A DNA stretch of 31,294 bases from a virus: IMG/VR virus record IMGVR_UViG_3300022752_000262, positions 1-31,294 of that record; one strand, 5' to 3'. The notes below the pieces were generated by a model, which was not told the DNA's origin, searched no databases, and saw only the letters and a list, made by a program, of their open reading frames with translations. Positions within the stretch are counted from its first letter, which is position 1, and every line of letters begins with the position of its first letter. This document shows positions 2,023-17,456 of the stretch, piece by piece. A program made the translations under genes and the position numbers.

Positions 2023-2303
2023 ATGAGTGCTGGCGCGGATCGCGAGCGACTAATAAAGAAAACGTGCGCCCGCGCGAAGAGCATAAAGCATGCCAGCGGC
2101 TCTATCATGCTATTTTTTGATACTATTTTAAGGGTAAACCCTATGCCTTTAAAACGCGATAGGAAGCCCGTAGAGCGTTTTTCGGGATTGTGAAGGGTAG
2201 GGTAGCGACTAGATCGCGATCGATTGCTGTAGAGCGATTGGCAGGTTTTTCATGCTATTTTTTGGTATGTTTTTTCGTTCTTTTCTCTAGAATGAGTGCT
2301 GGC
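2023..2303. repeat. Direct repeat pair ATGAGTGCTGGC
   Basis: The 12-mer ATGAGTGCTGGC is present exactly at 2023-2034 and 2292-2303. A second exact pair, the 15-mer TCATGCTATTTTTTG, occurs at 2105-2119 and 2250-2264. The two pairs are interleaved, suggesting a duplicated regulatory block that later diverged, or recurring phage promoter elements. No sigma70-like pair of boxes fits them well. Confidence 0.55.
2131..2142. promoter_or_regulatory. Operator-like inverted repeat AGGGTAAACCCT
   Basis: AGGGT and ACCCT are inverted around AA and followed by ATG-like sequence (CCCTATG). A related element, ATAGGG-GTTT-CCCTAT, lies at 2330-2345 and is also followed by GG. The two share the CCCTATG edge and symmetry, so they may bind the same dimeric regulator. 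This is inference from symmetry only. Confidence 0.35.
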
Positions 2304-2329
2304 ATGCATGCTTTCTTTTTACGGTCAAT

Positions 2330-2345
2330 ATAGGGGTTTCCCTAT
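2330..2345. promoter_or_regulatory. Operator-like inverted repeat ATAGGG/CCCTAT
   Basis: Six-base arms are perfectly inverted around GTTT. It is the better of the two AGGG/CCCT-type symmetric sites in the divergence region (the other is at 2131-2142). Confidence 0.35.
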
Positions 2346-2696
2346 GGTAAAGAATGCGAAAGTGTGCTAGGCATTTTTCGTTATAGACATTGTAACGAAT
2401 GGGGTAGGGGTAGTGATAAATTTTAGGATGATAGTGTCGACCGGTTCACTACACTGTAACACAGTCGTAATAATTCCTAGAATAGTGTTATTTTATATAA
2501 CTATATTTATATGCTTATCAGTAGCAGAATGATTATGCTCAAAAGTATAGTTATGCTCAGCGGTACGATGTTGCTCCACAGCATAGTGAGTGCTGCTAGA
2601 ATGATTATGACGCATTGCATCATACTTTATCGCATGATAGTTATCTTTTCCATAAGCAATCGTAATTAACTTTAGTATCATTCTAATGTATACTAC

Positions 2697-2730
2697 GGTG
2701 GGGGGACGCGTGGGCCACCGGGGGGTATGG
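2697..2730 (+). other. G-rich tract, possible G-quadruplex
   Basis: Runs of six G at 2700-2705, three at 2712-2714 and six at 2720-2725, plus a GG at 2729-2730, stand out in AT-rich surroundings. GGTGG (2697-2701) can also pair with CCACC (2715-2719). A three-tier quadruplex is possible by splitting a six-G run. The base composition differs sharply from both flanks. Confidence 0.4.
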
Positions 2731-2828
2731 CGTTATCTGTATATACGTCTACCCACAGAAGGGTAAAATTGACTTGTTAACCACTTTGTATTTTGGCTAG
2801 TGTCTACAACGTCGGCAACACAACAAAA

Positions 2829-2844
2829 TGTTTCATGTGGAACA
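2829..2844. promoter_or_regulatory. parS-like 16-bp site (ParB-binding motif)
   Basis: The sequence TGTTTCATGTGGAACA differs from the chromosomal parS form TGTTTCACGTGGAACA at one position, and from TGTTTCACGTGAAACA at two. The mismatch changes the central CACGTG to CATGTG, a position usually important for ParB. The site lies in the gene-free region beside two stem-loops. No ParA or ParB gene is visible in the window. Confidence 0.4.
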
Positions 2845-2861
2845 ATAAAGATGAAAATCAT

Positions 2862-2908
2862 TCTCATTTAGAAAAGGAAAGAACAACATCTTTGTTGTAT
2901 AAATGAGA
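2862..2908. repeat. Nested stem-loop, 9 bp outer and 6 bp inner
   Basis: TCTCATTTA (2862-2870) pairs with TAAATGAGA (2900-2908). Inside, ACAACA (2883-2888) pairs with TGTTGT (2893-2898) around TCTT. The asymmetrical 12-nt internal side (GAAAAGGAAAGA) is purine-only. It could be a folded RNA element upstream of the rightward genes. Confidence 0.5.
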
Positions 2909-2953
2909 CATTCTGGAAAGTCTTTGCTCTTTTCCCTATTTTTTCCTATAACA

Positions 2954-2972
2954 TCTACATAGTTGATGTAGA
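2954..2972. repeat. 7-bp stem-loop
   Basis: TCTACAT (2954-2960) and ATGTAGA (2966-2972) are perfect inverted copies around AGTTG. It sits just upstream of the candidate promoter for the rightward block. Confidence 0.5.
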
Positions 2973-2990
2973 CAATATCACTCTGTAAAA

Positions 2991-3020
2991 TTGATTAGTA
3001 ATTTTAATTACTTATTTTAT
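2991..3020 (+). promoter_or_regulatory. Candidate sigma70-type promoter for the rightward block
   Basis: TTGATT (2991-2996) is followed, after 18 nt, by TTTTAT (3015-3020). The spacer contains the inverted repeat AGTAATT-TT-AATTACT (2997-3012). The first rightward start codon is at 3073. The match is moderate and the sequence is very AT-rich, so chance matches are likely. Confidence 0.35.
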
Positions 3021-3072
3021 ATATTTTTATATGCTGATGTTATGCTGACAGCAACCTATATAGATCATTATA

Positions 3073-13147: not shown

Positions 13148-14660
13148 TGAAGTTAAAAAAATAGGAAGTGCTATTGATGATGCAGCTCATGACGTTGTAG
13201 ACTTTGTTGGAGATGTTGGAACTACTGTTGGTAGAAGTATTGAAGATGCAGCAAGTTGGGTAGGAGATAGGCTTACAGATGTTGTAGAGTCTATTGAAAA
13301 AAATCCAATGATTTTATTGGCTGCTGTTGGTGGTTATTTTGCTATTCAAGGCATTATGGCAAGCATGGCTGCTGCTGGTAGTATTTCTACATCAGCTATA
13401 TTGGCAGAAGCTGGTGTAGATGCAATTATGCTTGAAATGCCAACGGCTGCTGCTGCTACTGCTACTGGTGTAGGAACACTAGAAGCAACTGGTGTTGCAA
13501 CAGCAAGTGCAGCTTCTGCTGATATTGCGGCATCAACAGCTTTACAAGCCGGAGCTACAACGGCTGAAGCAACATCTATTGCTTCTTCTGTTTCACAAGG
13601 CAGCGGATTAATGGATGCTGTCACACAATATGCTAGTAGCATTGTTGATAAAATTAATCCTTTTACAGCAGCCGCTGATGTAACTTCTACATCGTCAGCT
13701 TCTCAAAGTGTTTTTTCTCAAATTGGCGAACTAAGTAACAAATTATATACAAGCATTGGGGAAACTATACTTCCAGATGCAAGTGCAGGTGTACAAAAAC
13801 TTGCAGGACAAGGGGTATTTAATACAACTCTTAATGGAGGAGATTTAGAAGCCGGAGTTAAATCTACTTTAATGACATTTGGACTAGAAAATTTAGGATC
13901 TATTCCAGACCTAGCTGGTAAATCAATAGACGATGCCACTTCTTATTTTAAAAATTTGTTCCCAGAAAGTTTTAAAACTCTTGGGACTACAACTACAGAT
14001 TTTGCAAGTAAATTTGATACGGGTGCTTTGACAACACCAACAAACGCTTTAACAGAAACTTCAAATTTAACTCAAGGATTAGGAAGTCCTCCTAGCACTG
14101 GGGGATTAGATACTTTAGAAGCAATAAATAAAACAGGACAATCTTCTGCTATTACCGCTCCAATAGAAACTCCGACAATTAAAACAGGGCTTGGCGTTCC
14201 TCCAACTTCTAGTGATCTTTATAGTAAAATTACCACTGCACCCATTGGACAACCAACTGGCATGGTTACACCGGCTGGTCAAGGATATACTGGACCAGTT
14301 GAATCTGGTTACATGAAGGCGGCACCACCGGGATTTTTTAATCCAGAAACTAAAGCAAATATTGAAGGACTAACTGCTGGCGCAAAACTTGCTACTGCTG
14401 GTTATGGGGTAGCTAGAATGACTGGTTTAATTGGTCCAGATGAGCCAGCAAAAAAAGCAAAAACAAGTTATGATTATTCTGGATTAGGCAGCACTTACAC
14501 TGGCGGCACTACAATGCCTACTAAAGCCACTTATTCAAATGCTCCTATACAAGGTTTTCATATGGTAAAAGTTAAAAACCAAAGCGGGAATTCTTTGTAT
14601 GTCCCATTTATTGGTGAAAAACCACTAAACCCTATCCCATCTGGATATACACCAATTTAA
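13140..14660 (+). CDS. Ala/Thr-rich protein with membrane-like segment, probable virion/ejection protein
   Basis: A 506-residue protein. The N-terminus has DDAAHDVVDFVGDVGTTVGR, then IEDAASWVGDRLTDVVESI, an amphipathic repeated DVVxxVGD pattern. Residues about 55-80 (NPMILLAAVGGYFAIQGIMA) are hydrophobic enough for a transmembrane helix. A long Ala/Thr/Ser low-complexity region follows. The C-terminus (HMVKVKNQSGNSLYVPFIGE) is more ordered. The composition and site between portal and capsid genes fit an internal protein ejected with DNA, but no lytic transglycosylase motif is visible. Its TAA lies inside the 5' arm of the pseudoknot described next. Confidence 0.55.
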   Translation: MANEVKKIGSAIDDAAHDVVDFVGDVGTTVGRSIEDAASWVGDRLTDVVESIEKNPMILLAAVGGYFAIQGIMASMAAAGSISTSAILAEAGVDAIMLEMPTAAAATATGVGTLEATGVATASAASADIAASTALQAGATTAEATSIASSVSQGSGLMDAVTQYASSIVDKINPFTAAADVTSTSSASQSVFSQIGELSNKLYTSIGETILPDASAGVQKLAGQGVFNTTLNGGDLEAGVKSTLMTFGLENLGSIPDLAGKSIDDATSYFKNLFPESFKTLGTTTTDFASKFDTGALTTPTNALTETSNLTQGLGSPPSTGGLDTLEAINKTGQSSAITAPIETPTIKTGLGVPPTSSDLYSKITTAPIGQPTGMVTPAGQGYTGPVESGYMKAAPPGFFNPETKANIEGLTAGAKLATAGYGVARMTGLIGPDEPAKKAKTSYDYSGLGSTYTGGTTMPTKATYSNAPIQGFHMVKVKNQSGNSLYVPFIGEKPLNPIPSGYTPI

Positions 14661-14703
14661 CTGTTGACGAAGCCAGTTAAATAATTAATAATAATCTTCG
14701 TCA
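14655..14703 (+). ncRNA. Candidate H-type RNA pseudoknot before the scaffold gene
   Basis: Stem 1 is a perfect 9 bp: ATTTAACTG (14655-14663) with CAGTTAAAT (14674-14682). Its 10-nt loop contains TGACGAAG (14665-14672), which pairs perfectly with CTTCGTCA (14696-14703) as stem 2 (8 bp). Single-base junctions lie at 14664 and 14673, and a 13-nt A/T loop at 14683-14695. This order is that of a classical H-type pseudoknot. It contains the stop codon of the upstream gene. Stop-codon readthrough looks unproductive, since another in-frame stop follows at 14682-14684. It may regulate scaffold expression or mark an RNA-processing or termination point. Confidence 0.55.
14664..14692 (+). promoter_or_regulatory. 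Candidate promoter overlapping the pseudoknot
   Basis: TTGACG (14664-14669) and AATAAT (14687-14692) are separated by 17 nt, a good sigma70-type arrangement 50 bp before the scaffold start. It overlaps the paired elements of the pseudoknot, so the same bases might serve as a DNA promoter, an RNA fold, or both. Confidence 0.35.
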
Positions 14704-14742
14704 TTTGCGACCTGCAAGTGCAGCCCAACCTTAAGGACTTTT

Positions 14743-15591
14743 ATGGAAATGGTAATCGAACAAGAACAAAAAGTAGTTGCTTCCGCTTTTGGTAAAAGAA
14801 ATACCAATAAAGACCGCATTGAACAAGAAGAAGCAGAAATTGCTGCTTTGGAAAAAGGTAATGTTCCCGAACAAGAAGAGCAAGAACAAGAACCACAAGA
14901 CGCTGAAGAAAAAACATTTAAAAAGCGTTATGGTGATCTTCGTAGACATGCTCAAGAACAAGAAAATAAACTTAAACGTCAAATTGATGAACTAAGTAAA
15001 CAACTACAACAGTCTACTGAACAGCAAATTCAACTTCCTAAAAGCGAAGAAGAACTTGCTGCTTGGGCAGAAACATACCCAGATGTGGCTAAAATTGTAG
15101 AAACAATTGCAATTAAGAAAGCCAAAGAACAGTCTGTTAACATTGAACAAAAACTTAAAGTTTTGGATGAAAGAGAGAAACAAACAAAAAGAGAAAAAGC
15201 TGAAACAGAGCTTTTGAGACTACATCCTGATTTTGATGATATTCGTAGTTCGGATGACTTTCATTCTTGGGTTGAAGACCAACCTCAATGGGTTCAAGAT
15301 GCTTTGTATGCAAATGAAAATGATGCTAGATCTGCTGCAAGAGCAATTGATTTGTACAAATCGGATAAAGGTGTAAGCAAGAAAAAAACACCTGATTATA
15401 AAGAAGCGGCTAAGAGTATAGTTACTAGAGGAAATAGATCTACTCCAGATGAGAGTAGTCTTGACGGAGTTATTTACGAATCTCAAGTAGCTAAAATGTC
15501 TTCTAAACAATTTGAAAATGCTATGGACGCTATTCAAAAAGCTCAGGCCACTGGAAAATTTGTATATGATTTGAGTGGAGCAGCCCGTTAA
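14743..15591 (+). CDS. Scaffolding protein
   Basis: A 282-residue acidic, Gln/Glu/Lys-rich protein directly before the major capsid gene, the normal scaffold position. The first 60 residues are disordered acidic sequence (QEEQEQEPQDAEEKTFKKRY), then a coiled coil (QEQENKLKRQIDELSKQLQQ) and a helical core with AWAETYPDVAKIVETI and LRLHPDFDDIRSSDDFHSWV. The C-terminal helix (ENAMDAIQKAQATGKFVYDL) would bind coat protein. It guides capsid assembly and leaves the mature particle. AAGGA lies 8 nt before ATG 14743; a second in-frame ATG at 14749 is possible. Confidence 0.82.
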   Translation: MEMVIEQEQKVVASAFGKRNTNKDRIEQEEAEIAALEKGNVPEQEEQEQEPQDAEEKTFKKRYGDLRRHAQEQENKLKRQIDELSKQLQQSTEQQIQLPKSEEELAAWAETYPDVAKIVETIAIKKAKEQSVNIEQKLKVLDEREKQTKREKAETELLRLHPDFDDIRSSDDFHSWVEDQPQWVQDALYANENDARSAARAIDLYKSDKGVSKKKTPDYKEAAKSIVTRGNRSTPDESSLDGVIYESQVAKMSSKQFENAMDAIQKAQATGKFVYDLSGAAR

Positions 15592-15820
15592 GTATTGACA
15601 TAACAATATTTTATTGTTATATCTCTTTTCATCAACGTAACTGGAGCCGGTTTACCTACCTTCAGTTACGTTACTTGTAAAAACGCAAATAACAGATTCA
15701 GAGACACCTGTTCCTTTCTAGCCTAAAGTTTTAATTAATTTAAAATTTTACACCTAGATAATACAGCCCCTGTAGAAAGTTGAGCGTATTAATTTATGCC
15801 TACACTATAGGAGAACTATC
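15592..15820 (+). promoter_or_regulatory. 229-nt structured leader of the capsid gene
   Basis: No gene lies here. It contains four stem-loops. ATAACAATA/TATTGTTAT spans 15600-15620 (9 bp). AACGTAACTG/CAGTTACGTT spans 15634-15672 (10 bp). A TCTAG/CTAGA stem around an AT palindrome spans about 15716-15758. TACAG/CTGTA spans 15762-15774. The leader ends in AGGAG before the capsid ATG. Long folded leaders can raise mRNA stability for highly expressed capsid messages, or be bound by a regulator. Confidence 0.55.
15595..15623 (+). promoter_or_regulatory. Candidate capsid promoter
   Basis: TTGACA (15595-15600, a perfect -35 box) and TATATC (15618-15623) are separated by 17 nt. The spacer is almost entirely the 9-bp inverted repeat centred on 15610. 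It starts 4 nt after the scaffold stop and would provide extra transcription of the capsid gene. Confidence 0.5.
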
Positions 15821-16891
15821 ATGGCATTTCCAAAGGCCACAGGATATAATAACCTACCTAATGGTAATTTTAGTCCTGTAATCTACAGTAAGAAAGTCCA
15901 GCTTGCTTTTCGCAAAGCTTCGACTGTTGAAGACATCACTAACAGTGATTATTTTGGCGAAATCGCTAACATGGGCGATAGCGTTAAAATCATCAAAGAA
16001 CCAGAAGTTTCTGTCACGACGTATGCTCGCGGTACGCAAATTACTGCACAAGACTTGACTGACGAAGACTTTACGCTGGTTGTTGACCAAGCTAACTACT
16101 ACGCATTCAAGATTGACGATATTGAAGCAGCACATTCGCATGTTAATTTCATGCAAATGGCTTCCGATCGTGCAGCCTATCGTCTGCGTGACCAGTATGA
16201 CCAAGACGTTCTTGGCTACCTGTCGGGTTACTACCAGTCGGCTAAGCATGTTCAGTCTGATACTGCCCGTACCACTTTCCCCGGTACTAAAGCAATTACC
16301 ACTGCTGGTTCAGATGAATTGCTTGCAACAATGAAATTGAAGAAAGGCGACTTTGGTAACATTACCACTGGTTCTGCTGGCGACCATTCAATCCCATTGT
16401 CACCACGTTTGCCCGGGGCTACTGCTGCTTCCACTTCAACCGCAACTCCATTGCAAGTTATTGCACGGATGAGCCGTTTGCTTGATCAACAGTTTGTTGA
16501 CACGCAAGGGCGTTGGCTTGTTGTTGATCCAGTGTTTGTTGAGCTTCTTAAAGACGAAGACAGCCGTCTTTTGAATGGCTTGTTTGGTGGCGAAGGTCTA
16601 CAAAATGGTTTGGTTATTAACAACCTGCACGGCTTCCGTGTATATGTTTCTAATAACCTTCCTAAATTGGGAACGGGGCCATCTACTACAGGTACTGCTA
16701 ACCAAAACTCCAACTTTGGTGTAATGGTTGCTGGTCATGACTCTGCTGTTGCAACTGCTCAGCAAATCACCAAGACTGAAACCTATCGTGATCCTGACAG
16801 CTTTGCTGACATTGTGCGTGGTATGCATCTTTATGGACGCAAAATCTTGCGTCCTGAAGGCATTGTCACTGCTAAGTATAACGCTGCTTAA
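15821..16891 (+). CDS. Major capsid protein (HK97-type)
   Basis: A 356-residue protein forming the head shell. Evidence is its place after the scaffold and the pattern FSPVIYSKKVQLAFRKASTV, then EDITNSDYFGEIANMGDSVK, TTYARGTQITAQDLTDEDFT, AAYRLRDQYDQDVLGYLSGY, RWLVVDPVFVELLKDEDSR and NLHGFRVYVSNNLP. These recall the E-loop, spine helix and P-domain order of phage coat proteins. Codons here end in C or G more often than in neighbouring genes, as expected for a highly expressed product. AGGAGA lies 7 nt before ATG. The long leader may further boost expression. Confidence 0.9.
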   Translation: MAFPKATGYNNLPNGNFSPVIYSKKVQLAFRKASTVEDITNSDYFGEIANMGDSVKIIKEPEVSVTTYARGTQITAQDLTDEDFTLVVDQANYYAFKIDDIEAAHSHVNFMQMASDRAAYRLRDQYDQDVLGYLSGYYQSAKHVQSDTARTTFPGTKAITTAGSDELLATMKLKKGDFGNITTGSAGDHSIPLSPRLPGATAASTSTATPLQVIARMSRLLDQQFVDTQGRWLVVDPVFVELLKDEDSRLLNGLFGGEGLQNGLVINNLHGFRVYVSNNLPKLGTGPSTTGTANQNSNFGVMVAGHDSAVATAQQITKTETYRDPDSFADIVRGMHLYGRKILRPEGIVTAKYNAA

Positions 16892-17417: not shown

Positions 17418-17456
17418 AGGGGCAGCATCAGCAATGGTGTTGCCCCTTTATTTTTG
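17418..17456 (+). terminator. Strong intrinsic terminator after the capsid genes
   Basis: AGGGGCA (17418-17424) pairs with TGCCCCT (17441-17447). Further pairs, including G-U wobbles, extend the stem to about 12 bp around an AGCAAT loop. The tract TTATTTTTG follows. It lies 15 nt after the decoration-type gene stop and ends 9 nt before the next start, so capsid mRNA would be largely separated from the tail genes. Confidence 0.85.

Follow-up and report, generated by a model that had tools for sequence, protein, structure and literature searches.

Does the RNA just upstream of the probable scaffold gene of an HMO-2011-type virus fold into a pseudoknot, and what would such a structure do there? 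We examined this in the window, that is, the whole 31,294-base stretch analysed here, a virus record of HMO-2011 type. Its head genes matched those of Roseobacter phages (CRP-1 and others), of Puniceispirillum phage HMO-2011 and of a spring-water relative. The gene starting at 15821 is supported as the capsid gene by its assignment to phrog_267 and PF25209. The 282-amino-acid protein encoded before it had its best match in phrog_13678, a family whose function is not known; a Pfam search with this protein returned no family, and a search of solved structures gave two weak matches, both coincidental. We call it a probable scaffold protein because of its position and its charged, helical-looking composition. 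Elsewhere in the window, 879 bases without an obvious gene separated the left-end genes from the structural gene block (2194-3072), and a strong intrinsic-terminator-like hairpin of 13 pairs followed by a T-rich tail was found 3' of the next gene after the capsid gene (17418-17447).

An earlier note on this DNA, made from the sequence alone, had described an H-type pseudoknot at 14655-14703, and its coordinates, stem lengths, one-nucleotide junctions and 13-nt third loop were reproduced letter for letter. A perfect 9-bp stem (S1) interlocks with a perfect 8-bp stem (S2), loops L1 and L2 are short and a longer L3 crosses stem 1, as expected for this class. The note had also placed the stop codon of the upstream gene in the first stem and the start of the scaffold gene shortly after the structure; both were found in the window, with TAA at 14658-14660 and 39 nt between the end of the pseudoknot and the gene start. 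The separate stems had energies of about -6.2 and -7.3 kcal/mol. Nested RNA folding gave no signal at this position (z -0.31), since nested folding forbids pseudoknots and is blind to them. With an explicit H-type score, 14655-14703 was the top site of the + strand (score 40; runner-up 31.5), and 4 out of 800 dinucleotide-shuffled versions of the entire strand reached a score of 40. Taken from the window alone, the pseudoknot is suggestive, i.e. moderately surprising but not proof. We also considered RNase III processing of the leader and rejected it, the stems being too short.

Features of the scaffold and capsid leaders in the window, with the basis of each assignment
Feature	Position	Strand	Basis and remarks
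Stem 1 (S1), 5' strand ATTTAACTG	14655..14663	+	Sequence; homologous stem covaries in relatives
Loop 1 (L1), T, 1 nt	14664..14664	+	Sequence; 0-2 nt in relatives
Stem 2 (S2), 5' strand TGACGAAG	14665..14672	+	Sequence
Loop 2 (L2), C, 1 nt	14673..14673	+	Sequence
Stem 1 (S1), 3' strand CAGTTAAAT	14674..14682	+	Sequence; covariation in relatives
Loop 3 (L3), AATTAATAATAAT, 13 nt, A/T only	14683..14695	+	Sequence; A/T-rich in relatives
Stem 2 (S2), 3' strand CTTCGTCA	14696..14703	+	Sequence; pairing in relatives
Second module TTGC-GACC-TGC(AAGT)GCA-GCCC-AA, hairpin with conserved NACC bulge	14705..14728	+	Comparison of 26 leaders
Shine-Dalgarno AAGGA of the probable scaffold gene	14733..14737	+	Sequence
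Probable scaffold gene, 282 aa	14743..15591	+	phrog_13678; position immediately 5' of the capsid gene
Capsid-leader sigma70-type promoter, TTGACA, 17 nt, TATATC	15595..15623	+	Sequence; comparable TTGACA...TATAAC in relatives, e.g. L035, L009
Structured capsid leader, ACC/GCC internal loops akin to the second module	15636..15775	+	Comparative alignment

The relatives were decisive. We recovered about 60 leaders from 80 capsid-bearing contigs, and nearly all of them had an H-type pseudoknot upstream of the probable scaffold gene, built from different letters. Stem pairs included CCAG/CTGG with TGGTGGG/CCCACCA, AGTCTG/CAGACT with TGGTGGG/CCCACCA, and AGCTAT/GTAGCT with GAAGGGT/ACCCTTC; the 5' strand of S2 was TGGTGGG, TGACGGG, TGATGGG or GAAGGGT, each with its matching 3' strand. 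In the main clade, stem 1 was composite, with an outer helix of 4-6 bp, a bulge of 2-3 nt and an inner helix of 4-6 bp. We then used an independent sample, for which IMG/VR was scanned only with patterns of the module that follows the pseudoknot, so that the structure played no part in the choice. The sample comprised 143 unique upstream sequences of freshwater HMO-2011 relatives, taken from module-pattern matches in the loci collected to that point. The pseudoknot (score of at least 24) was present in 142 out of the 143 leaders, compared with 14 out of 715 shuffled controls; the sole exception, L048, had a single mismatch in stem 2. The view of the earlier note that chance was unlikely thus drew modest backing from the window and its real strength from this comparison.

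In an alignment of 27 leaders, 97.8% of the cells in S1 and 94.7% of those in S2 were paired; with the helices of the downstream module included, the figure was 95.6%, against 24-44% with slid partners. Double-sided changes occurred in 7 out of 10 S1 pairs and 2 out of 7 S2 pairs, and in 11 pairs when the module helices were included; the covariation score of the alignment was 0.343, compared with 0.03-0.055 for slid partners. RNAalifold, unaided, found stem 1 and the downstream stem. Substitutions that break either stem without compensation, which the earlier note had named as grounds for refutation, were looked for, and the outcome favours the pseudoknot. The compensatory changes that it had proposed to look for in both stems were significant for S1 against a phylogeny-aware null modelled on R-scape, in which 5 out of 2415 column pairs passed the cut-off (E<0.05), all of them in S1. 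Each of the two variable S2 pairs showed double-sided change on three branches, and neither reached significance by itself (E 0.27 and 20), so covariation of S2 within the main clade is weak and this stem rests on its wholesale replacement between clades together with its high overall pairing. Finally, a manual count in the table of the phylogeny-aware test, with the mostly unpaired outermost position excluded, gave 43 G-U against 6 A-C stem cells on the + strand, which points to + strand RNA. Overall, the pseudoknot is well supported as a structure, and the proof comes from the relatives.

The close clade members of the window have identical stems, and therefore the window clade shows no covariation of its own. 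It is tied to the family through position, geometry, the downstream module and a model from whose construction the window clade was left out; this model matched the window at 14644-14745 (E 0.014). It found at most one site per genome among the genomes searched, so that none of them had the scaffold leader twice. The stop codon within stem 1 was peculiar to the window clade, and in most relatives the upstream gene ended before the structure; what the earlier note had observed is correct for the window clade and does not extend to the family, and hence the structure does not appear to be a readthrough device. Pseudoknots that act in recoding follow the site of the shift, or the stop codon, at a distance of 5-9 nt. 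A readthrough or frameshift signal of the upstream gene would fit the stop codon of the window, which falls inside S1, but in most relatives the pseudoknot lies in non-coding DNA and follows a -10 box, and we find this reading hardly credible.

A sigma70 promoter match (TTGACG-17-AATAAT, 14664-14692) overlaps the pseudoknot, agrees with the consensus at 10 out of 12 positions and is kept in the window-clade members examined. The conserved letters of this clade could accordingly belong to a DNA promoter, with the pairing incidental. That account leaves the exact complements CAGTTAAAT and CTTCGTCA unexplained, and a homologous pseudoknot is present in clades that do not have this promoter, which makes it very improbable.

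Two elements absent from the earlier note were found on either side of the pseudoknot. Upstream, in 17 out of 17 representatives outside the window clade, a -10-like hexamer (TATAAT, TACAAT or TATACT) preceded the first S1 pair by 4-8 nt. The distance was generally 4-5 nt, and 8 nt in the L027 group, where TTGACT or TTGTCT was also present 18 nt upstream; outside the L027 clade, the -35 boxes before the scaffold leader were mostly poor. Because the -10 box abuts stem 1, we infer that a sigma70 transcript of these relatives would start at the stem or within a few nucleotides of it. At the 5' edge of the window-clade pseudoknot we found no convincing promoter (TATACA, no -35). The upstream coding region continues into S1 in this clade, so that here the pseudoknot may lie inside a longer transcript.

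Downstream lies the second element (14705-14728), a module in which GC-N-AC and GC-C were invariant across 26 leaders, including those of HMO-2011, the CRP isolates and the Rhizobium phage RHph_N3_13. Its inner hairpin changed from TGC/GCA to CGC/GCG within the window clade. The module was common to the marine isolates and the more distant Rhizobium phage, and most marine isolates had it without a clear pseudoknot, which is therefore dispensable in the wider group. Four leaders (L049, L059, L064, L066) carried an extra hairpin (e.g. GGGCTATTTTAAATAATAGCC) between pseudoknot and module, which shows that the two domains are separable. By sequence, the bulge ACCU could pair with the Shine-Dalgarno AGGU in many members. 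Sequestering of the Shine-Dalgarno by the ACC(U) bulge was not sustained as more than a side possibility, as predicted accessibility was scattered between 0.05 and 0.69 with no common fold.

Conserved core nucleotides between covarying helices, with a bulge able to reach the ribosome site, would also suit a small-molecule riboswitch or ribosensor, with the NACC/GCC core as the pocket and the pseudoknot as its support. The Rfam 15 covariance models gave nothing meaningful for the leader, and the statement of the earlier note that it matches no known riboswitch consensus holds. With that, the occurrence of the leader only before head genes and the inconsistent sequestering in predicted folds, we regard a riboswitch as quite improbable.

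A consensus-like promoter and a structured leader serve the capsid gene separately, which makes the joint scaffold-capsid message assumed by the earlier note doubtful. The functions that the note had suggested for the pseudoknot, to control the ratio of scaffold to capsid protein or to act as an RNA-processing barrier, are conjectural. In the alignment of capsid leaders, ACC, GCC, CACC and GC(C) blocks were invariant or nearly so, and two helices covaried strongly (0.668, compared with at most 0.102 for slid partners); Rfam gave no match for the capsid leader within 15592-15820. We read its ACC/GCC internal loops as equivalent to those of the scaffold-leader module, a reading of our own from the sequences. 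The pattern CTACC-gap-GGCCC occurred at the scaffold and capsid leaders and at scattered sites, with no genome-wide pattern beyond the two leaders. An HNH endonuclease-like coding stretch (e.g. RIDSSKGYVVGN...) was observed immediately 5' of the capsid leader in L011, L014, L023, L059, L080 and L087, and one HNH-like stretch between the scaffold and capsid genes is annotated as HNH in MW202701.1.

This distribution bears on whether the leader could act as nascent RNA on RNA polymerase, by antitermination or anti-pausing. Like HK022 put RNA and EAR, it is a folded RNA of suitable size directly 3' of a host-type promoter in the relatives. It differs from both in lying only before head genes and in having no sequence or model match to them. 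Long operons elsewhere would need antitermination too, but the scaffold leader has no second copy in the genomes searched and the ACC/GCC motif no wider pattern; given also the lack of an Rfam match and a pseudoknot that marine relatives can do without, such a role seems improbable.

The leader thus combines a structure on the + strand, conserved in position across the family and present at most once in each genome searched, with a module of conserved letters. We tentatively favour, at a little under even confidence, a cis-acting two-domain leader of the probable scaffold message, in which the pseudoknot would serve as a 5' cap by its shape only and the module would be the regulated site. In most relatives, the pseudoknot would start about where a host sigma70 promoter begins the transcript, would offer 5'-end-dependent decay of the RppH/RNase E type few unpaired nucleotides, or none, to act on, and would also keep the fold of the site downstream fixed. 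The NACC-bulge hairpin before the Shine-Dalgarno would be read by a common factor setting scaffold and capsid synthesis. We favour a mechanical role of the pseudoknot, rather than one in sequence-specific binding, because its shape is kept and its letters are not, at a probable transcript start; the module is the likelier recognition site because its letters are kept and it recurs before both head genes. Both the stability function and the trans-acting factor are what we infer from comparing sequences. We counted as fitting the cap that the RppH of B. subtilis requires at least two unpaired 5' nucleotides (PMC3997798), and as against it the lack of a promoter at the window-clade pseudoknot, the marine isolates with the module but no clear pseudoknot, the weak covariation of S2 within the main clade, and the mostly poor -35 boxes outside the L027 clade. 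The stabilising structure at the 5' end of the E. coli ompA leader is alike in that it lies at or adjoining the transcript start and its exact sequence is immaterial; it is a plain hairpin, whereas here a pseudoknot would have the putative stabilising role.

The P22 scaffold protein limits its own synthesis. P22 is not known to have such a pseudoknot or operator. HMO-2011 has an annotated P22-type coat, and the probable scaffold gene lies beside a coat gene of this type, as in P22. The scaffold protein itself is possibly the ligand of a translational operator, in which a protein would nucleate on the pseudoknot and then cover the A/U-rich stretch and the Shine-Dalgarno, as for gene 32 of T4. 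The T4 operator consists of a pseudoknot, an A/U-rich stretch with UUAAA-like sequence and the ribosome site (PMC535899, PMC3014915), and we consider it the closest working parallel to the leader. In T4, T2 and RB69, the gene 32 pseudoknot is likewise H-type with very short loops, lies towards the 5' end of the message, some tens of nucleotides before the Shine-Dalgarno, and keeps its shape among related phages. Here too, a pseudoknot 5' of the ribosome site (39 nt before the ATG), an A/U-rich stretch with the UUAAA-like CUUAAAAGG and the ribosome site follow one another within 40-60 nt. However, gene 32 encodes a single-strand binding protein in another phage group, and the leader of the probable scaffold gene differs in its abutting promoter, in the bulged composite stem 1 of the main clade and in an extra structured module. 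The stretch that is unstructured in T4, with UUAA(A) repeats, is replaced here by this conserved module with one UUAAA-like unit, and marine relatives retain the module without a clear pseudoknot. We therefore hold a T4-like operator to be unlikely, though worth keeping in mind.

The two-domain leader can be extended to the capsid gene. The ACC/GCC motif would then be present in both messages, carried by a 5'-terminal pseudoknot in that of the scaffold gene and by a long leader of several helices in that of the capsid gene. A single RNA-binding factor would co-ordinate scaffold and coat synthesis, making this new leader-RNA family a capsid-assembly RNA regulon of an abundant aquatic phage group. 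We consider this extension possible but doubtful.

HMO-2011-type phages are described as a dominant and broadly distributed marine group, and the paper on their genome diversity mentions neither promoters nor RNA polymerase (PMC9038755). In the open-access literature, we found no work on the timing or balance of structural proteins in these phages and no description of the leader element, so its novelty is probable, not certain. According to a 2010 review, autoregulation of translation by a viral pseudoknot may be limited to that of T4 gene 32 (PMC3014915); with the leader, an unrelated phage group would provide a second candidate. The leader adds an RNA family absent from Rfam and appears to be a new element controlling how virus heads are made. 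How phages set the ratio of scaffold to coat is a long-standing question, which the leader makes testable with a 90-nt reporter construct.
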